Position numbers and translations under genes: made by a program
Shown: positions 2,250-24,031 of the stretch, one piece after another
How positions within the stretch are numbered: the stretch's first letter is position 1
Layout: every line of letters begins with the position of its first letter
DNA from: a virus
Virus record (IMG/VR): IMGVR_UViG_3300044960_000922
Span: 1-36,320 of that record
DNA: 36,320 bases
Direction: 5' to 3' (one strand)
The notes under the pieces: model-generated
The model's input: the letters and a program-made list of their open reading frames with translations, nothing else
What the model was told of the DNA's origin: nothing
Databases searched by the model: none

Positions 2250-4841
2250 TTACACCTTCGCGAGGCGGGCACCGATGCTGCTGTTCGCGTGCGACGGGGC
2301 GTCGCCCACGTACAGGTAGAAGAGGCCGGCGTCCGCGCCGTCGCCCCAGCGGCCGCCGTGATAGGCGATTCGATCATCGGTGTTTGTATTACTCCAGAAA
2401 TAGTCTCCAGTGCTGCCATTCGATTGCGTACCGTCAACAGTCGCTGGCACAATGACACCAGCCGCAAGTAGCGTGGTGTTGAACGTGACCGGATAGCCGG
2501 AAGACGCAGGCGCAGACTGACTGGTGTTGATATAGCCTGCGGAGAAATCGCTAGTCGTGGTATTACCCGGCACGTTGTACTGCCAGCGCCACCACGTGCC
2601 TCCGTTACGCTTGAGGCCGTCCACCATCTGCCAGACGTTACCCCACAGCCCGACAATGCCACGCCACGTCGCTTGCGCCACATCGCTGGCATCAACATTC
2701 GCCGCGCTTGACGCCGACACGCGCCCCTGACCGATGAGTGACTGCATGTCCAGCCCGCCCATTTCGATTGATGCCAGCATCTGGATTGCGGCAAGGTCGT
2801 AGTAACTCCAGAGGCGAAAACCGGAGACGCCGCCGGTGTTGCGGGCGTAGGCTCGGCTGCGGGCCGTCGGGAAGTCCATGCTGACGTATGGCGACACACC
2901 GGCAACCGACTGCATTTTCGTGCCGTCTGTGCTCGCCTGATACTTCCCAACCCAGATTTGATTGAGTTCTGCGCCGCCAGCGCCAATGAATGCCGGATGA
3001 ACGCTGAAACCAGGCACAGGCTGATCAGAGATCATCCAGTAGGCTTTGCCGGCGTATGTACCGCTTGGTACCGTTCCCGCCTTGAAGTAAAACCTAGGGA
3101 TGCGCACCATCGCCTGACCGTCTATCGTTTGGTCGACGATCCCCGCGTAGGTTGGGTTGTTGTTGAACCACGCCGCGTTCGGCGAGACGGGGTTGAAATT
3201 CTCATCGACGCGCTGGTATTGCCCTGCACCGCCGCCAGTGGCGACTTGCACCAGGCCGATGATCGAGGCAAATTGCTGCTTGGTCGTGAACGTCACATCC
3301 GCCGACCATTCAGACCAGCCGAGCGAGCTTCCCTTGTGCCGCACACGGACAGCGTATTGCGTCTGCCCCGCTTGCAGCACCCCCGCCGGGACGACGTAGG
3401 AGGTTTTTGCAGTGGTCGTTTCGCCGGAATCATGGAGCGGGCTTGCCCAAGAGCCGGATGCCAGCCGGATTTGCCACTGGCTGGACAGGTGCGTATCCGC
3501 TCCGCCAGTGACGGCAAAAGCGCTCGACGTAATGGTCGGTTGCGCCGGGATGTCGGTCTGGCCGTTGGTCGGGCTGGTGATGCTGGGGGTGTTGACGTAG
3601 GCAAACGATGCCTTGGTCGTGAAGGACGACGCCGCCGACCAGGCGGACGTGAGGCCGGCAGAGTCTTTGACCTGTGCGCGCACGTAATAGGTCGTGCCGG
3701 TCGAGAGGATGCCGGCCGGCAAGGTGTAGGACTGCGCGTTGACCCAGCCGGAATCGTGCGCGACGGTGGCAAAGGTATTGCTCGTCGAGACTTGGAAGTG
3801 CGCCTGCGCGAAGGCGTTGCCAGCTGGCGACGAGAATCCGGCGATGGCCAGCGTGGGAGTCTCGCCGATGTCGGTCGCGCCGTTGGTCGGGTTGGAGATC
3901 GTGGGCGCATCCGGCGCAAGGCCTGGGTTCATCAGGCCGGTCAGGCCGGTGACGGTGCCGAGCGCGACGATGTGGAGAATGTCACACGCTTCGTCTTCGA
4001 CGACGATGCGTAAAAAGCCGTCGCCTTTCATCGGCACAGTGTATTCGTAGTCAGCAAACCCATCCGGGATGGGCGTATCCGGTGCGCCGACGCGCTTGTA
4101 GATCCACGGCCGCTCTGTCCAGTTGGTGGTGTAGGCGTCGCGGAAATAGAGCCGGACATTGGCCGAGTTGTGGCTGCGGCGGATCACCACTGCGCGGGTG
4201 TCGTTGTCTTCGCCGAGGTTGATGGTCTTGGAGATCCAGCGCGCGCCGGGCTGCGCACTGACGCCGCCACCCGTGCGCTGGGCGAAGGTCTGGCCGACGA
4301 TTTTTGCGGCAGAGCTCCAGTTGCGCAGCAGGTTGCTCGTCAGCCGCAGGCGCGTGGCCGAGAGCACCGCCGCGATGCGGATCATGGCGATCTCGCTACC
4401 TTCGACGAGGATGTAGTCCTGCCCAACCCGGAAGCCTGTGGTATCGGCCACGTCGATCGAGTCGTCGCCCATGACGCCGTTGATGACCGCCACTTCGCCG
4501 ATGTTGCGGAGGCGGTAGCCGTCAGCAAAGAGCTCGAAGGCGATCTTGCGGTTGCGGTAGAGCCAGTCGAGCGAGACGGCCTGCTGCACGCTGGCCGGGC
4601 TGGCGAGCCCTTGCAGCGTGTCGCCCATCAGCCCAAGACTGGTCATGATGTCGGAGATGGCCGCGCCGAGACTCGCTCGACCGGCGCGGGCGGCGGCTAT
4701 TTCGGATTCGGTGGCCGTCACCCTGCCGTCGAGGTTGGCGAAGTTTTCGTCGATTTCGACGTAGCGGGTGTTCCAAAGGCTTGGGACCGCTTCAGGTTCG
4801 TTGTTAGGGATTGGGGTGATTTGCGGATGAGGGATGGTCAT
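2250..4841 (-). CDS. Tail fibre / receptor-binding protein, DGR target with C-type-lectin-like end
   Basis: An 863-residue protein. Residues 1-300 form a phage-attachment and beta-rich region. Two fibronectin-III-like repeats follow (about 312-410 and 418-522; note the parallel PTNGATDI and PTNGQTDI, and SAWSAASSFTTK and SEWSADVTFTTK). The C-terminal ~340 residues resemble the FGE-sulfatase/C-type-lectin fold of DGR targets (GLWGNVWQMVDG at 731-742). The variable repeat covers residues 828-862, ending one residue before the stop. Compared with the TR-encoded version, eight of nine Asn and one Asp are changed (to R, D, D, Y, G, D, A, H, S). Inferred role: adhesin at the tail tip whose lectin-fold surface is diversified to change receptor specificity. 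It is followed by avd after 6 nt. Confidence 0.92.
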   Translation of the reverse strand: MTIPHPQITPIPNNEPEAVPSLWNTRYVEIDENFANLDGRVTATESEIAAARAGRASLGAAISDIMTSLGLMGDTLQGLASPASVQQAVSLDWLYRNRKIAFELFADGYRLRNIGEVAVINGVMGDDSIDVADTTGFRVGQDYILVEGSEIAMIRIAAVLSATRLRLTSNLLRNWSSAAKIVGQTFAQRTGGGVSAQPGARWISKTINLGEDNDTRAVVIRRSHNSANVRLYFRDAYTTNWTERPWIYKRVGAPDTPIPDGFADYEYTVPMKGDGFLRIVVEDEACDILHIVALGTVTGLTGLMNPGLAPDAPTISNPTNGATDIGETPTLAIAGFSSPAGNAFAQAHFQVSTSNTFATVAHDSGWVNAQSYTLPAGILSTGTTYYVRAQVKDSAGLTSAWSAASSFTTKASFAYVNTPSITSPTNGQTDIPAQPTITSSAFAVTGGADTHLSSQWQIRLASGSWASPLHDSGETTTAKTSYVVPAGVLQAGQTQYAVRVRHKGSSLGWSEWSADVTFTTKQQFASIIGLVQVATGGGAGQYQRVDENFNPVSPNAAWFNNNPTYAGIVDQTIDGQAMVRIPRFYFKAGTVPSGTYAGKAYWMISDQPVPGFSVHPAFIGAGGAELNQIWVGKYQASTDGTKMQSVAGVSPYVSMDFPTARSRAYARNTGGVSGFRLWSYYDLAAIQMLASIEMGGLDMQSLIGQGRVSASSAANVDASDVAQATWRGIVGLWGNVWQMVDGLKRNGGTWWRWQYNVPGNTTTSDFSAGYINTSQSAPASSGYPVTFNTTLLAAGVIVPATVDGTQSNGSTGDYFWSNTNTDDRIAYHGGRWGDGADAGLFYLYVGDAPSHANSSIGARLAKV
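2257..2359 (-). repeat. DGR variable repeat (VR)
   Basis: The VR lies at the extreme 3' end of the tail-fibre gene. Against the TR it has 11 substitutions in 103 bp, all at TR adenines: 7 A to G, 3 A to C, 1 A to T on the coding strand. None fall in the final 21 bp. A 5-bp inverted repeat (gtaat/attac, 2233-2237 and 2249-2253) begins 3 bp beyond the VR end, where the Bordetella phage DGR has a hairpin. The stem is short, so that match is only suggestive. Confidence 0.95.
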
Positions 4842-19048: not shown

Positions 19049-19531
19049 TCATCCGTCCGCCAGATGGGCGCGGATGGCCTCCAGGATCAGCGAGCGGGCG
19101 GCGGCGTCGATCTCGCCCGATTCGCTCACCGGGAAGTAGCGCCGCGCCGGGATGTCGCCCCAGGGGATTTTGGCGCCGCGCCGGGTCTGGCCGAAGGCGC
19201 CCTTCTTCGCCCCGAATTGCAGCACGGCGGACTGCACGGCGCTCGCGCCGATGAGCACCTGGTCGCTGCTCGCCTCGTGGTATAAGCGGCTATTGACGAA
19301 GTCGCCGTGGTTGATGAGCGGGCGCGCGCCACGCTTACGCGCCAGCGTCACTGGACTGTTGGGGGCAAAGGGATTGCCCGTCCAGTCGCGCCCGGAGAAG
19401 ATGTGTTCGCGGGTCTTTTCGATGAGCGCCTGGCCGATGAAGTCCATCGCCGGCTGCATGTGGCTCACCCGCGCTTGCAGGCGTGCGAGCGCCGCGCGCA
19501 CTTCACGGTCGTCGATTTCGATCTTGATCAT
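19049..19531 (-). CDS. G: Virion morphogenesis protein G (Mu gpG-like)
   Basis: 160 residues: MIKIEIDDREVRAALARLQA, MDFIGQALIEKTREHIFSGRDWTGNPFAP, then INHGDFVNSRLYHEASSDQVLIG and WGDIPARRYFPVSE, the typical gpG pattern. In Mu, gpG is a tail-completion/head-joining protein encoded next to F. Here the antirepressor module and two secreted-protein genes separate G from F. The ATG at 19531 overlaps the nuclease stop as ATGA. Confidence 0.9.
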   Translation of the reverse strand: MIKIEIDDREVRAALARLQARVSHMQPAMDFIGQALIEKTREHIFSGRDWTGNPFAPNSPVTLARKRGARPLINHGDFVNSRLYHEASSDQVLIGASAVQSAVLQFGAKKGAFGQTRRGAKIPWGDIPARRYFPVSESGEIDAAARSLILEAIRAHLADG

Positions 19532-20178
19532 TTGCACAAGGACTCACAAGGCGCGCCGTCGCCGTTGCGGTCAAGACTCCTTAGCCCGCATACCGTCAGA
19601 AAAAACTTCGCCTCCTCGCACGACACCATCTGCGAGCAGGTGCGCTTCGAGCCGCAAGTGAATAACCCGCCTTGATGTGTGACGTGCGCGCCGCCATTTC
19701 CCCCAGCCGAGCGTCTCCACTCTTCCGGCTTGACCGGATGGGCGTCTGCCCACAAGCCGATACGGCGTGATCGCGCCTTGTCTTGCGCCTCGAAATAGGC
19801 CGGATCGGTGGCGTAGCGCTCATACACCCACGCCATGCCGGACTCGACCATCGCAAGATTCACGTCCTTTCCGGACGCGATCACAGTCCCCACGGTGCGC
19901 CCGTAGCGGTCGATGTCGCGCTGGATGATGGTCACCTCTTTCCCGAACACCATGCCGGATAGCGCCTGTTTTGCGCGCTCGCCGAATGGCTGCGCCTTCT
20001 CTGGGGCATCGATCTGCGCGAGCCTCACCTTGACCTGGCGCTTTTCACGTGTCAGACAGGTGAGCGTGTCGCCATCGGTCACACCGACAACCCGGCACTC
20101 GAACGAAGACTGCGCCACAGCCTGCGCCACCGGCGCAAGCACGACAAAGACGGCGGCAACGATGGCTGCGGCGCGCAT
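19528..20178 (-). CDS. Secreted SNase-type nuclease with Excalibur domain
   Basis: 216 residues. The first 22 are a signal peptide ending AQAVAQS. A staphylococcal-nuclease-like domain follows: CRVVGVTDGDTLTCL, VKVRLAQIDAPE and ERAKQALSGMVFGKEV, then DRYGRTVG and MVESGMAWVYERYA. The C-terminal Cys-rich part includes FTCGSKRTCSQM and the Excalibur-type DRNGDGAPCESLC, a likely Ca-binding loop. It should act in the periplasm or outside. It lies in the late cluster but has no virion role in Mu or P2, so it looks like cargo. An effect on incoming foreign DNA or host DNA uptake is possible but unproven. Confidence 0.88.
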   Translation of the reverse strand: MRAAAIVAAVFVVLAPVAQAVAQSSFECRVVGVTDGDTLTCLTREKRQVKVRLAQIDAPEKAQPFGERAKQALSGMVFGKEVTIIQRDIDRYGRTVGTVIASGKDVNLAMVESGMAWVYERYATDPAYFEAQDKARSRRIGLWADAHPVKPEEWRRSAGGNGGAHVTHQGGLFTCGSKRTCSQMVSCEEAKFFLTVCGLRSLDRNGDGAPCESLCK

Positions 20179-20442: not shown

Positions 20443-20470
20443 TTGTGATTGAAAAGCCATATGCTACACT
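20443..20470 (+). promoter_or_regulatory. Promoter of the C4-like RNA / antirepressor module
   Basis: TTGTGA (20443-20448), 16 bp, TACACT (20465-20470) with TG one base before the -10, an extended -10 arrangement. Start is expected near 20477, right where the structured RNA begins. It faces away from the secreted-protein gene on the minus strand. Confidence 0.65.
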
Positions 20471-20476
20471 AACACC

Positions 20477-20568
20477 GTCCGCGATGGCCGTCGCGGATCG
20501 GGATTGGCGTCCCGAATACGAAGGCGGACGTGAAGCCGCCGATCGCAAAGCGAGGAGCGGCTTTTTTT
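20477..20568 (+). ncRNA. C4-type antisense RNA
   Basis: About 92 nt with three compact hairpins: TCCGCGA/TCGCGGA (20478-20497), CGGGA/TCCCG with loop TTGGCG (20499-20514), and a two-tier terminator stem. Two stretches, TTGGCGT (20504-20510) and ACGAAGGC (20518-20525), are perfect complements, in the right order, of ACGCCAA (20646-20652) and GCCTTCGT (20632-20639) in the leader downstream. This is the arrangement of the P1/P7 c4 antisense RNA, which controls icd and ant from the same transcript. The match to the C4 family is by layout and complementarity; no covariance search was done. Confidence 0.75.
20533..20568 (+). terminator. Rho-independent terminator at end of C4-like RNA
   Basis: AAGCCGC (20533-20539) pairs with GCGGCTT (20557-20563). 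Inside, TCGC-AAA-GCGA forms a second stem. Seven T residues follow (20562-20568). It should end a small RNA while allowing some read-through into the leader and antirepressor. Confidence 0.8.
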
Positions 20569-20569
20569 C

Positions 20570-20917
20570 ATGTCCGCGCATGGTGTTTGCCCTATGGGCG
20601 GCCCGTGCGGGGAGCCGCAAGGCTCGCCGGTGCCTTCGTTCCGGTACGCCAACCCGTACGGTGCCCGCCCGCCCTGTTGGCGTGGGGCGGCGGGTAGTCA
20701 TAACCTGCAACGAAGGAGCAAATCATGCATACACTCACCACCGCCGAGTTCCTCGGCACCCCTGTGTCCATCCTCGACCATGCCGGACGGCGCTGGCTCA
20801 CCGCCCGCGACGTGGGGCGCTGCCTGGGCTACGAAGACCCGTCGCGCAAGGTCATCCACCTCTACCAGCGGCACGCCGACGAGTTCGGGCCGGACGACAC
20901 AGGTGTGCTCAATTTGA
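20570..20917 (+). CDS. Icd-like leader ORF upstream of and overlapping the antirepressor
   Basis: 115 codons in a frame different from the antirepressor. The first ~45 residues (MSAHGVCPMGGPCGEPQGSP, then SFRYANPYGARPPCWRGA) resemble short Icd/Ash-like peptides encoded ahead of antirepressors in P1/P4-type immunity regions. The rest, beyond 20725, overlaps ant and is low-complexity Ser/Pro/Arg. AGGAG lies inside the terminator stem about 13 nt before the ATG. In P1, icd and ant are translationally linked and c4 RNA acts on the icd start. Treat as a possible coding leader. Confidence 0.4.
   Translation: MSAHGVCPMGGPCGEPQGSPVPSFRYANPYGARPPCWRGAAGSHNLQRRSKSCIHSPPPSSSAPLCPSSTMPDGAGSPPATWGAAWATKTRRARSSTSTSGTPTSSGRTTQVCSI
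20633..20716 (+). promoter_or_regulatory. Leader RNA hairpin that can hide the antirepressor ribosome-binding site
   Basis: CCTTCGTT (20633-20640) is the exact complement of AACGAAGG (20709-20716), which contains the antirepressor Shine-Dalgarno AAGGAG start. ACGCCAAC (20646-20653) is the complement of GTTGGCGT further in. The two 8-bp helices nest, making a long hairpin. The C4-like RNA carries copies of the 3' arm sequences, so it would compete for the 5' arm. Confidence 0.65.
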
Positions 20918-21420
20918 GCACACCCGGCGGCACGCAAAACACCCGCATTTTCTCCCACACCGGCTGCATCCTGCTCGCCATGTTCGCCAACACGGCGCGG
21001 GCCAAGGACTTTCGCGCCTGGGCGAAGCGCGTGCTGGCCGGGGACAGCCTGCCCGCGCCCGCCGAGGCGGTGAATGCCTGGGGGCGGCGGGTCAAGGTCA
21101 ACCGCACCATCGAGCGGCAGGCGATGGAGCTCTACGTGGCCGGGCTGGAAACCGGCAGCATCGCCCGGCACCTGGGCATCAGCAAGTCGGCGGTGAAGAA
21201 GATGCTCTCGGGGCAGTACCGCTTCTCTCCCGCCTCGGGGCCGGATGAGACCACGCCCGCGCTGATCGCGGCGGTGGCTGCCGAGCGGGCGCGGCGGGAG
21301 CAAGACCGCATCGTCGATGAATACGTGGCCAGCGCCGTGAACCAGCGCTTGCAGCAGGCGCTCGAATCGGTGGGGCGGCAGATGCTGGCCGCGCTGCAAA
21401 GCGTGACGGTGGAGGGCTGA
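20725..21420 (+). CDS. Phage antirepressor (Bro-N type) with C-terminal HTH
   Basis: 231 residues. A Bro-N domain spans about 8-105 (ILDHAGRRWLTARDVGRCLG, SRKVIHLYQRHADEF, RIFSHTGCILLAMFA, KDFRAWAKRVLAG). A helix-turn-helix follows at about 132-165 (ERQAMELYVAGLETGSIARH, LGISKSAVKKML), then a charged coiled coil. AAGGAG precedes the ATG by about 8 nt. Such proteins relieve repression of prophages or satellite elements. It reads against the late operon, between F and G, with its own promoter. It looks like an acquired immunity/anti-immunity cassette. Confidence 0.87.
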   Translation: MHTLTTAEFLGTPVSILDHAGRRWLTARDVGRCLGYEDPSRKVIHLYQRHADEFGPDDTGVLNLSTPGGTQNTRIFSHTGCILLAMFANTARAKDFRAWAKRVLAGDSLPAPAEAVNAWGRRVKVNRTIERQAMELYVAGLETGSIARHLGISKSAVKKMLSGQYRFSPASGPDETTPALIAAVAAERARREQDRIVDEYVASAVNQRLQQALESVGRQMLAALQSVTVEG

Positions 21421-21423
21421 GCC

Positions 21424-21630
21424 ATGAGCGGCTACATCATCACGGAGGATGCCGAAGCCGCCCTGTGGCGGGCGGACCTCGCCTTGCAGGCCATGAGTCA
21501 TGCCTTTTCCGCCGCCGACGGCGCGGCCTGCGAAATCCCCGGCGATCAGCTCGCCGCGCTGCTGGAGCTGGTTCGCGAGCAGGTGGCCGAGGCGCGGGCC
21601 TGCGCGCGGTTTGATGCGCGGGCGGGGTAG
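21424..21630 (+). CDS. Small protein co-encoded with the antirepressor
   Basis: 68 residues, acidic and helical (SGYIITEDAEAALWRADLAL, then DQLAALLELVREQVAEA). GGAGG lies 8-9 nt before the ATG, and the gene starts 3 nt after the antirepressor stop, so the two form one operon. No family was recognised. Confidence 0.75.
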   Translation: MSGYIITEDAEAALWRADLALQAMSHAFSAADGAACEIPGDQLAALLELVREQVAEARACARFDARAG

Positions 21631-21763: not shown

Positions 21764-24031
21764 TTACGGCCGTTGAGCGCGGGGGGCGCGGCGAATCACC
21801 CGCATCGACTTGAGCGCCACCATGCGGCGCTTGTTCAGGATGCCGAAGGCGGCAACCTGCCGCTCGCCATCGAAGGCGCGCTCAAGCAGCAAGGTCTTTC
21901 CGCCATCTTCCACCCAAATCCTGTCAGGGGCCAGGATGATGGCAGGCAGTCGCGCATAATCCCCTGCCGTCACGGCGCGTTGCCCGCGCGGCTGCTCCAC
22001 GGCATCGTCGCCGTGCTCGGCGCGAACATGCAGCGGCGCGTATTTGTCAATCACCCAGTCGAACAACTCCCGCTTGAGTGCCTCGACGCCGGTCATCTCG
22101 GCGATGCGGGCGGACTCATCCATGGTGAGCAGCCCCATGGTACGGTATGGGTCTACCGGGCGGCCAGCCAGCGCGGCCTGGGCGTAGCGGCGCACGGCCT
22201 CGCCGGTCTCGGGCTGGGCACGCACGGCCCGCGCCAGCGCGTCGCGCATCTCGGCAGGCACGCCGCCCATGTAGGCTTTGGCCAGCTCATACGGCCAGGC
22301 GACGGTTTTCCCGGCAAAGGTGGCGGCCAGATCGGCCATCACCGGATCGAACCTGGAAAGCGCCCCGGCAATGGCCTTGATCGCTTCGGCCTTTCGCCCA
22401 GGCATATACCCCCACCCCTTGTCGATCCCAACCGGCTCTTTGGTCTTTGGGTCGATGGCGTCCCACCCGGCTGGAGGGGTGTTGTAGCCGGGGTCGCCGC
22501 CCAGGAGCTTCGCGCCTTCCCCTCCATTCGCGCCGACAACGCGGCAGCGGCAGTTACTTACAACAATACCACCCGCTAGAATAAGACCTGTGGATGTCGT
22601 GAAGTCGTAAACATGACCAGACCAATCGAATTTTCTGATCTCGATCACATGGTCGAGCAATACCTTTCCGGGGTTAGCGTCAAGCAACTGGCGCAGGAGC
22701 GCGGCTGCTGCCGTCAGGCCGTCGCTCGTGCACTGGCTCAGGCCGGGGTCGATCTGCGCGGGCGAAGCGATGCGAACCGGGTCGTCTGGCGGCGTGTCAA
22801 GCAAAGCGACGGCTGGCGCGAGCGCTACCTTGTCAAGGCGTGGGCCGCTGCCGATGCGCGCAACGCCGATGCCGAACGCATCGCCGTCAGCCTGTACCGC
22901 AGCGGATTGACCAGCGCCAGGCAGATCGCGCTGCGGCTTGGCATGTCCAAGCCAGCCGTTCAGGAGATGCTGCGACGCCGCGGGCTTGGCGAGGATCGAC
23001 GCATCCTCAGAATCGCGCATGGCCGTATGGGTGGCTTCAACCGGCAGTCCCAATGCGCCATCGAGCCGGATTTTGCCGAAGCCTTCACCGCGCGCGGACT
23101 CGACTATGTGCACCAGATGGCGATCGGCACCCGCAATGTGGATTTCGCCTTCCATACCGAGCGCGTCGCCGTGGAAATCGTGCGTCGCCACTGGAATGAC
23201 GCGAAATCCCTGCGCCGCGAGCGTCTCGAACAAATCTTCGGCGCAGGTTGGCGCATGTTCATCGTGTACGATCCAACTCAGCGGGGTATTGATGTCGGGC
23301 GATGCACAGAGCAGCTCGTCGCCCTGTTGGAGCGACTGCGCCGCGACCCATCCACGCCCGGTCAGTATTGGATGATTGGGGGTGACGGCGACCCTGTTCC
23401 CGCTGGCCGCGTGAATCTCCACGATTTCGCCCGCATACCAGACGCGCTGACCGAGTAGGGCATCGCAGCGCACTGGCGTGCTACCAGGGAAGCAATTCCA
23501 GCCATTCGGCGGGTAGTGGCTCTGCCAGAAGGGGTGGTCGGCGGGCAGCGTGAGGCCATTCCACGCCAGATGCTGCGGGCGCGGGTGGGCGACGCTATCC
23601 GAGTGCTTGTAGACCCAGTAACGGTAGCCAGCTTCCTTGAGCTGGGCGAGCCTCCCGGCGGCGTAGCTCGTGGCCAGATTGGTCTGGTATATCACCCTTG
23701 TCCGCCACGCCACCCCCTTGCCGCCCTTGTCGTCCGGCGTCTTGCGGTCGTCTCCCGTCCAGCCCGCCCAGCCGTGGCGGCGGACGATCTCCAGAAACCG
23801 CCCGCGAAACGCCTCCAGCGTCTCGCCCTCGGCAATCGCCTTGTCCACAGCGGCGGCAAGGTCGGCAAGCAGGTCGGCCTTGGCGGCGCCGGCTACCATG
23901 AAGGCGCGGTCGTGGGCGCTCTTCTTGATGTCGTCCCACTTTTTCGTGGGCACGAGATTGCCGAGCTTCCCCCGGAAAAACGCCACCTGCTCATCGAACG
24001 GGCGGCGAAAGACGACGGCGGGGTCAGGCAT
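21764..24031 (-). CDS. F: Head morphogenesis protein F (Mu gp30-like), interrupted by an intein
   Basis: 755 codons. The N-extein (1-179) has PFDEQVAFFRGKLGNLVPTK, TRVIYQTNLATSYAAGRLAQ and HYPPNGWN. The intein is residues 180-493. The C-extein (494-755) resumes with CRCRVVG, joining to PPNGWN-CRCRV, the conserved Mu-F junction, and continues with the later domain (VDPYRTMGLLTMDESARIAE; TAGDYARLPAIILAPDRIW). The spliced protein would have 441 residues. gpF is a minor head protein needed in capsid assembly. Its weak AGGG ribosome-binding site lies about 8 nt before the ATG. Confidence 0.93.
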   Translation of the reverse strand: MPDPAVVFRRPFDEQVAFFRGKLGNLVPTKKWDDIKKSAHDRAFMVAGAAKADLLADLAAAVDKAIAEGETLEAFRGRFLEIVRRHGWAGWTGDDRKTPDDKGGKGVAWRTRVIYQTNLATSYAAGRLAQLKEAGYRYWVYKHSDSVAHPRPQHLAWNGLTLPADHPFWQSHYPPNGWNCFPGSTPVRCDALLGQRVWYAGEIVEIHAASGNRVAVTPNHPILTGRGWVAAQSLQQGDELLCASPDINTPLSWIVHDEHAPTCAEDLFETLAAQGFRVIPVATHDFHGDALGMEGEIHIAGADRHLVHIVESARGEGFGKIRLDGALGLPVEATHTAMRDSEDASILAKPAASQHLLNGWLGHAKPQRDLPGAGQSAAVQADGDAFGIGVARIGSGPRLDKVALAPAVALLDTPPDDPVRIASPAQIDPGLSQCTSDGLTAAAALLRQLLDANPGKVLLDHVIEIRKFDWSGHVYDFTTSTGLILAGGIVVSNCRCRVVGANGGEGAKLLGGDPGYNTPPAGWDAIDPKTKEPVGIDKGWGYMPGRKAEAIKAIAGALSRFDPVMADLAATFAGKTVAWPYELAKAYMGGVPAEMRDALARAVRAQPETGEAVRRYAQAALAGRPVDPYRTMGLLTMDESARIAEMTGVEALKRELFDWVIDKYAPLHVRAEHGDDAVEQPRGQRAVTAGDYARLPAIILAPDRIWVEDGGKTLLLERAFDGERQVAAFGILNKRRMVALKSMRVIRRAPRAQRP
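22553..23494 (-). other. Intein coding segment in gpF (314 codons)
   Basis: The N-terminal splicing block begins at Cys1 (CFPGSTPVRCD), followed by block B with the TxxH motif (AVTPNHPILTGRGWVAA). The C-terminal blocks are GHVYDFTTSTGLILAGGIVV and the terminal SN, followed by Cys+1. The penultimate residue is Ser rather than the usual His. The middle ~210 residues contain no LAGLIDADG or HNH motif in this frame and look like filler; the DNA here encodes a different ORF on the plus strand. The insertion point is the most conserved tract of F, as usual for inteins. Confidence 0.93.
22613..23458 (+). CDS. Putative homing endonuclease encoded antisense inside the intein
   Basis: 281 residues. 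The N-terminal half has two HTH-like units (QYLSGVSVKQLAQERGCCRQ at 17-36; YRSGLTSARQIALRLGMSKP at 95-114). The C-terminal half resembles Vsr-like/PD-(D/E)XK homing nucleases: E151, NVDFAF with D177, RVAVEIV with E188, then HW (193-194) and RRERLEQIFGAGWRMFIVYD. The whole ORF lies within the intein on the other strand. TAGAAT at 22577-22582 could be its -10; its ribosome-binding site is weak. It would supply homing for an intein that has no in-frame nuclease. The assignment is by motif reading. Confidence 0.75.
   Translation: MTRPIEFSDLDHMVEQYLSGVSVKQLAQERGCCRQAVARALAQAGVDLRGRSDANRVVWRRVKQSDGWRERYLVKAWAAADARNADAERIAVSLYRSGLTSARQIALRLGMSKPAVQEMLRRRGLGEDRRILRIAHGRMGGFNRQSQCAIEPDFAEAFTARGLDYVHQMAIGTRNVDFAFHTERVAVEIVRRHWNDAKSLRRERLEQIFGAGWRMFIVYDPTQRGIDVGRCTEQLVALLERLRRDPSTPGQYWMIGGDGDPVPAGRVNLHDFARIPDALTE

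Follow-up and report, generated by a model that had tools for sequence, protein, structure and literature searches.

We found a putative antirepressor switch in a stretch of viral DNA of 36,320 nucleotides (IMG/VR record IMGVR_UViG_3300044960_000922), which we call the window. We consider it probable, as the best explanation for this region, that a Mu-like phage carries a complete antirepressor switch of C4 type as an accessory cassette, similar in kind to immI of phage P1 and isrK of the Salmonella prophage Gifsy-1. Three RNAs, namely a short upstream RNA, the antisense RNA C4 and the leader of the antirepressor gene (ant), appear to share two words that change together, as supported by sequence. 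The words are named as in P1: a is the first target, corresponding to the C4 junction (a′), and b is the second target, corresponding to the C4 loop (b′). The features are listed here; L002, L003 and L223 are related modules.

20462-20470, plus strand: extended -10 promoter-like element, TGC TACACT, with presumed activity; TGCTA.A.T is common to the window, L002, L003 and L223
20474-20569, plus strand: IsrK-like or a1b1 RNA with hairpins, a free b1 stretch and a terminator (covariance-model matches; predicted transcript ends)
20504-20510, plus strand: a1, TTGGCGT, within hairpin 2 of the upstream RNA; exact complement of C4 20646-20652
20518-20525, plus strand: b1, ACGAAGGC; exact complement of C4 20632-20639, covarying in L002, L003 and L223
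20533-20568, plus strand: predicted intrinsic terminator, a hairpin and seven T (fold; the T run also occurs in viral loci)
20590-20676, plus strand: C4 antisense RNA (Rfam RF01695 match above the cut-off)
20633-20639, plus strand: C4 b′ word, CCTTCGT, in the P3 hairpin loop (complementarity; a loop in the Rfam alignment)
20646-20652, plus strand: C4 a′ word, ACGCCAA, in the junction (complementarity; unpaired in the Rfam alignment)
20677-20683, plus strand: a2, TTGGCGT, predicted first C4 target in the ant leader (complementarity to a′)
20709-20716, plus strand: b2, AACGAAGG, predicted second C4 target, overlapping the Shine-Dalgarno sequence GAAGGAG (complementarity; covarying in L002, L003 and L223)
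20725-21420, plus strand: ant, putative antirepressor of 231 amino acids with a Bro-N N-terminus and a helix-turn-helix-like C-terminus (Pfam, PHROG)
21424-21630, plus strand: 68-amino-acid ORF directly 3′ of ant, kept in the L002 contig and L003

Assignment of the RNAs and genes

C4 is the sole Rfam family above its cut-off in the window. The model (RF01695) matches positions 20590-20676 on the plus strand with 57.5 bits, compared with a gathering score of 45, and the match covers model positions 1-87 of 87. The fold of this stretch has a z-score of -3.34, and 0 of 200 shuffles fold equally well. Two of its unpaired words complement two words in the antirepressor leader (a′ with a2, and b′ with b2), as is characteristic of C4 RNAs. 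An earlier note on this DNA had suggested a covariance search for C4; the search did find this RNA, but in the region that the note had taken for the leader.

The RNA of roughly 92 nucleotides that the earlier note regarded as C4 lies further upstream (20477-20570). It folds into hairpins as claimed, with a strong hairpin and then seven T at its end (z -2.04; equalled or bettered by 9 of 200 shuffles), but its identity is different. Whereas C4 is found elsewhere, this RNA is matched by two other models below their thresholds. The isrK model (RF01394) gives 32.3 bits, less than its gathering score of 50, so we class the RNA as IsrK-like and not as a family member. The c4-a1b1 model (RF03163), which Rfam describes as the a1 and b1 targets of C4, gives 28.6 bits, less than its gathering score of 46.7. 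These sub-threshold scores count against the main reading. Given that RF01695 lies on the supposed leader and c4-a1b1 on the supposed C4, the segment pairs in the earlier note are a1 and b1 with C4, and not C4 with the mRNA. The complementarity was correctly recognized: exact complements of TTGGCGT (20504) and ACGAAGGC (20518) stand, in the right order, at 20646 and 20632. These “leader segments”, though, are the C4 junction and loop themselves, and the second pair of targets (a2, 20677-20683; b2, 20709-20716) was absent from the note.

We built models from 35 C4 RNAs and 32 upstream RNAs hand-picked from 66 candidates, after five loci judged to be chance and one second copy had been set aside; the picks favoured loci with good partners. 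In the alignment, the 32 upstream RNAs form two hairpins, of which the second contains an invariant TTGGC, and they have a variable b1 and a T-tract; 10 of the 11 predicted pairs exhibit changes on both sides. A model called R3 was made from 29 hand-picked upstream RNAs without the window, L002 or L003, and P1 and Gifsy-1 are not among its rows. It scores Gifsy-1 IsrK at 63.1 bits, a Bordetella phage at 59.7, P1 at 58.1 and the window at 47.4 (E 1e-8). Thus, one lineage-free model joins the window, P1 and Gifsy-1 in a wider a1b1/IsrK-type class, which counts for the main reading. R3 also finds L003 and L002. It detects L223 weakly (21.9 bits, E 0.007), and the upstream RNA of this module lacks a T run like that of the other modules (gcggctttgtcg), a point against the main reading. 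For these two reasons the L223 terminator is doubtful. Among the matches listed, 61 of 72 viral loci (one per loop type) have a T run in the interval from a1 to C4.

The earlier note also proposed a promoter. A consensus sigma-70 scan of the window listed none here, including the element at 20462-20470, but the extended -10 sequence TGCTA.A.T is present in all four related modules (window, L002, L003 and L223), consistent with the presence of a promoter.

The Bro-N antirepressor in the earlier note is well matched. The protein encoded at 20725-21420 on the plus strand, with its start codon at 20725, is a putative antirepressor: Bro-N (PF02498) scores 41.8 bits against a cut-off of 25.6, and nine of the ten PHROG families matched are named anti-repressor. 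The 68-amino-acid ORF at 21424-21630 matched no Pfam or PHROG family; it is 92% identical over amino acids 1-50 in the L002 contig and 69% identical in L003.

The Icd-like leader ORF that the earlier note placed before ant is unsupported, and so is an orf45-like one. Although open frames cover the leader in the window, they are set at varying offsets from ant among relatives; L002 and L223 have stops, and the frames in the window matched no Pfam or NCBIfam family. Therefore, the window has no counterpart, by conservation or family match, of the icd gene that lies between b2 and ant in P1 immI.

Two words shared by three RNAs

Words a and b each occur three times in the window and in the right order, with b2 sitting on the Shine-Dalgarno sequence of ant. 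By itself, the pairing evidence inside the window is moderate. TTGGCGT is common there, with nine plus-strand occurrences. In dinucleotide shuffles of the upstream RNA, two colinear words (7 + 8 nucleotides) complementary to C4 arise in 72 of 2000 cases. For the ant leader, 43 of 2000 shuffles give 7 + 7 words. The two-word match in the earlier note could on these figures reflect chance pairing among G+C-rich hairpins. It is covariation in relatives, and not the match in the window alone, that makes the pairing secure.

The window, L002, L003 and L223 modules have a mean column identity of 82%. In L002, whose ant is 89-90% identical, word a is kept and word b is changed in all three RNAs (GCAAAGG / CCTTTGC / AGCAAAGG). 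The same is true of L003, whose ant is 82-85% identical (AACAAGG / CCTTGTTT / AAACAAGG). L223, which was located via its major head protein, changes both words: word a is TTTGACAG / CTGTCAA / GTGACAG, and word b is AACGTAGG / CCTACGTT / AACGTAGG. Such compensating changes in three RNAs at once refute chance pairing, and the shuffle controls on viral and genomic codes given below also stand against it, leaving it a vanishingly small probability.

A pattern scan of viral contigs returned at least 120 stretches. Because the junction (GCCAACCC) was part of the pattern, word a is invariant in this set. Among the matches listed there are 127 C4 cores, of which 120 have full flanks, 92 are distinct and 72 have distinct loops. 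For these 72 loop types among the matches listed, a complement of at least 7 nucleotides occurs upstream in 48, downstream in 50 and on both sides in 38. When loops were dealt randomly 500 times, the corresponding means were 3.64, 3.34 and 1.14, and the maxima were 12, 9 and 6. The remaining 34 of the 72 loop types among the matches listed are without one or both 7-nucleotide partners. Some of these are chance matches to the pattern, and the missing partners count against the main reading. As a side observation, one viral contig (L125) has a pair of C4 cores whose loops differ.

Word a was tested on a genomic set obtained by Rfam searches of whole genomes, in which the junction is unfixed. C4 matches were found in 5 of 10, 14 of 119, 28 of 200 and 17 of 99 genomes. 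The set consists of 131 hits, including the window and L223, that reduce to 119 distinct codes; it is not independent, since four genomes account for at least 46 of the hits. The loop word is matched at 7 or more nucleotides in 86 codes upstream and 86 downstream (shuffle maxima 14 and 13), and the junction word in 104 upstream and 87 downstream (shuffle maxima 19 and 16). Among the 82 codes whose junction is other than GCCAAC, 81 have an upstream partner of at least 6 nucleotides, and 64 have a downstream partner as well.

One genome (G232, L391-L410) has at least 20 complete C4 modules (20 candidates scored). The 20 fetched modules have 20 different word pairs, and single words recur in other pairs. 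Matches of at least 7 nucleotides to the loop and at least 6 to the junction connect each C4 with its own leader in 20 of 20 cases, compared with 3 of the 380 other pairings. A module's own target matches better than every other in 19 of the 20 rows and in 18 of the 20 columns, and its own upstream element does so in 16 of 20 rows. Each module precedes a gene for a small paralogous protein. The two of these proteins that were tried had no Pfam match, so these proteins are at most candidate antirepressors.

We also observed at least 10 C4-like RNAs in each of two genomes (G430 and G403, L431-L450) from the same family as the Thermomonas genome mentioned below. Of those checked, most have a match in their upstream element but lack one in the 70 bases downstream, and their targets may therefore lie elsewhere.

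Proposed mechanism and known systems

In the mechanism that we favour, a single promoter would produce a transcript that mostly stops near 20568, giving a short IsrK-like RNA with a1 and b1. Read-through transcripts would provide the C4 RNA and the ant mRNA, with C4 presumably processed as in P1. The C4 junction and loop would pair with a2 and b2 in the ant leader, in agreement with the covariation, and this pairing would shut off ant translation, b2 being the Shine-Dalgarno sequence. Most likely, the short upstream RNA with the same two words would titrate C4 as a decoy and thus free ant. Different phages have different b words and, less commonly, different a words, and the three RNAs of a module change in concert; the words thus probably form an address by which immunity groups are kept apart, like those of P1 and P7. 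Under this scheme, the role of Ant might be to inactivate a phage repressor, either the phage's own or that of another prophage; the co-resident prophage suggested in the earlier note is one possible target. The phage's own repressor is absent from the record because the record stops at the transposase gene.

P1 C4 is processed by RNase P and represses ant, and a difference in specificity between P1 and P7 is in print (PMC5320573). Antirepressors that act on the repressors of other prophages are known in Salmonella (PMC3121763). In Gifsy-1, short IsrK supplied in trans raised an anrP translation fusion 139-fold and transcription 8-fold (PMC4825925, Table 1B), and the rise in translation supports decoy action.

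The P1 annotation (NC_005856) has the same order as the window, namely promoter, a1, b1, C4, a2, b2 and antirepressor. P1 C4 scores 48.5 bits with the C4 model, and a hairpin followed by a T run precedes it, as in the window. By contrast, P1 has icd between b2 and ant1, while in the window b2 is on ant's own Shine-Dalgarno sequence. The P1 words (a, TTGACAG; b, GTTAGTG) are unlike those of the window, and P1 is not Mu-like. Control of an antirepressor by C4 as in P1 immI, proposed in the earlier note for a Mu-like phage, is the right class of system with the parts wrongly assigned.

In Gifsy-1, the isrK - orf45/STnc1160 - anrP region has an IsrK-like RNA, C4 and an antirepressor in the same order as the window, and the C4 model matches directly after IsrK (55.9 bits). 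Word a is identical letter for letter to that of the window (TTGGCGT / ACGCCAA), but word b differs. We numbered the Gifsy-1 transcript with AUGs at 107 and 119, and the named bases agree at every position checked (18, 28, 31, 107, 114, 119-121, 159, 162, 173 and 175). C4 then corresponds to nucleotides 103-189. The word TTGGCGT (26-32) includes G28 and G31, and the word ACGCCAA (158-164) includes C159 and C162. Hershko-Shalev et al. reported compensatory mutant pairs G28/C162 and G31/C159 (PMC4825925). Given that these mutants fall within the two words, they test the same a-word pairing as the first segment of the earlier note.

The Gifsy-1 data are explained in PMC4825925 by alternative folds and translation of orf45, which is coupled to anrP there; such an ORF is unsupported in the window. 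A corresponding explanation for the window is mainly a cis switch, in which the isrK part of the long transcript folds onto C4/orf45 and blocks translation, the short IsrK competes, and a separate C4 is unneeded. The compensatory mutants are consistent with this, and a long window transcript (20474-20740) does fold in this way in silico, at -140.2 kcal/mol. We nevertheless consider it improbable: it leaves the match of a2 and b2 to C4 and the covariation unexplained, and there is no conserved leader ORF here to couple with ant. One Gifsy-1 result, that extra STnc1160 strengthened the growth arrest caused by IsrK (PMC4825925), is not predicted by simple titration of C4, and it counts against the main reading. 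Citron, bacteriophage P1 and C4 antisense go unmentioned in the text of PMC4825925.

Satellite P4 resembles the window in that a processed antisense RNA (CI RNA) lies between two target copies, seqA and seqC (PMC4825925). P4 acts through premature termination of replication genes, unlike the switch proposed here, and the P4 Rfam family has no match in the window. A P4-like attenuator is nonetheless conceivable: C4 bound to a1 and b1 would favour the terminator at 20533-20568 and limit read-through into the operon of C4 itself, and the upstream RNA would be mainly a by-product. The layout equals P4 seqA - CI - seqC, a parallel that PMC4825925 draws for IsrK, and b1 sits just 5′ of the terminator stem. 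On the other hand, activation of Gifsy-1 anrP translation by short IsrK in trans (PMC4825925) is unexpected of a by-product, and the terminator stem is predicted to be stable without C4. We therefore regard attenuation as possible, but rather unlikely, and prefer the decoy mechanism.

Other systems share parts of the arrangement. Bordetella avium phages vB_BaM-IFTN4 to 6 have 73% DNA identity to the window over query positions 160-297. In IFTN4 and IFTN6, C4 is above the Rfam cut-off with an antirepressor downstream, as in the window, and IFTN4 has an IsrK-like match. The antirepressor of these phages is annotated as Rha family, and the module lies beside RecT and exodeoxyribonuclease VIII, whereas that of the window is among head genes. 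The group 1 C4-like sRNAs of Acinetobacter baumannii have the C4 fold, a variable target-binding loop and many copies per genome (PMC5320573). They were assigned bacterial targets (PMC5320573), while the C4 of the window is within a complete phage module. In Xylella, neighbouring C4 and isrK matches have been listed (PMC12189769).

The Mu-like carrier and implications

The record has transposases A and B at its right end (phrog_310, E 8.1e-48; phrog_296, E 1.1e-32) and, on the minus strand, genes of Mu type for head, tail and packaging, the head genes being represented by the major head protein (phrog_371, E 1.2e-137) and Phage_Mu_F (Pfam, 37.5 bits). Transposases A and B together with head genes classify the phage as Mu-like. 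Profile matches of the surrounding genes thus bear out the earlier note on the Mu-like late-gene setting and on the plus-strand order of the cassette.

Using the major head protein, we collected 160 loci of relatives (80 in genomes and 80 in viral contigs). The C4 model matches only two of them, one being the L002 contig. The L003 module occupies the same site as that of the window, flanked by the F-like gene and gp31 and opposing the direction of the late genes. The L223 module lies between gp31 and the protease gene, along the late genes. The F-like gene and gp31 are about 60 bases apart in L242 and about 105 in L139, with no insert. Given this rarity (2 of 160) and the two different sites, the module is best read as a likely accessory insertion among head genes. 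Three of 50 C4-bearing contigs (50 of at least 120) weakly match the Mu transposase family, the best at E 5.3e-11 over part of the profile; these contigs are fragments, and C4 modules in Mu-like phages look uncommon.

The major head protein has relatives of 83-87% identity in a Porticoccaceae MAG, Pseudomonas thermotolerans, Thermomonas and Tepidicella. This only suggests a proteobacterial and perhaps moderately thermophilic host. For the Bro-N protein, 105 stretches in genome contigs fit a pattern and none encodes a relative, so ant does not name the host.

The window has further elements of its own. A diversity-generating retroelement comprises a reverse transcriptase at 550-1932 on the minus strand (phrog_1423), a template repeat (TR) at 1697-1799 and a variable copy (VR) at 2257-2359. 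The two copies, of 103 bases, are 89.3% identical, with all 11 mismatches at template adenines, and VR is the 3′ end of the tail gene at 2250-4841. The F-like head protein (21764-24031, minus strand) has an intein-like insert at about amino acids 181-493, for which Pfam Intein_splicing is below its cut-off. The F-like proteins of L134, L137, L217, L234, L237 and L242 align to amino acid 180 and resume at about 494 with no gap, while that of L223 aligns straight through the insert region. The C-terminus of the F-like protein has a PBECR3 nuclease-like domain. Between gp31 and the cassette, at 19528-20178 on the minus strand, is a gene for a staphylococcal-nuclease-like protein with an Excalibur domain.

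Switches of this type are already known; the locus mainly offers a clean, well-conserved instance of one in an unusual carrier. What is fresh is the reading of IsrK as the a1b1 element and of the words as a two-part code. We found no statement of either in the literature covered, namely search listings and selected passages of mostly open-access papers. These points link work on P1 C4 and on Salmonella IsrK, which we did not find connected in the part of the literature examined. We lean, by a narrow measure, towards a joint reading of the data. In this reading, two-word addresses would be held in three RNAs (decoy, antisense and target), and re-using words in varied combinations would allow numerous modules to exist side by side with little cross-talk (at least 20 in G232). 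A terminated IsrK-type decoy would be general to P1-type immunity and not restricted to Salmonella, and cassettes would move as accessory insertions into phages that ordinarily lack them, here adding a second, independent immunity group. With the window, L002, L003 and L223, a single phage lineage offers four natural codes for comparison in reporters. If the two-word code is true, immunity groups of the C4 type would be readable from sequence.
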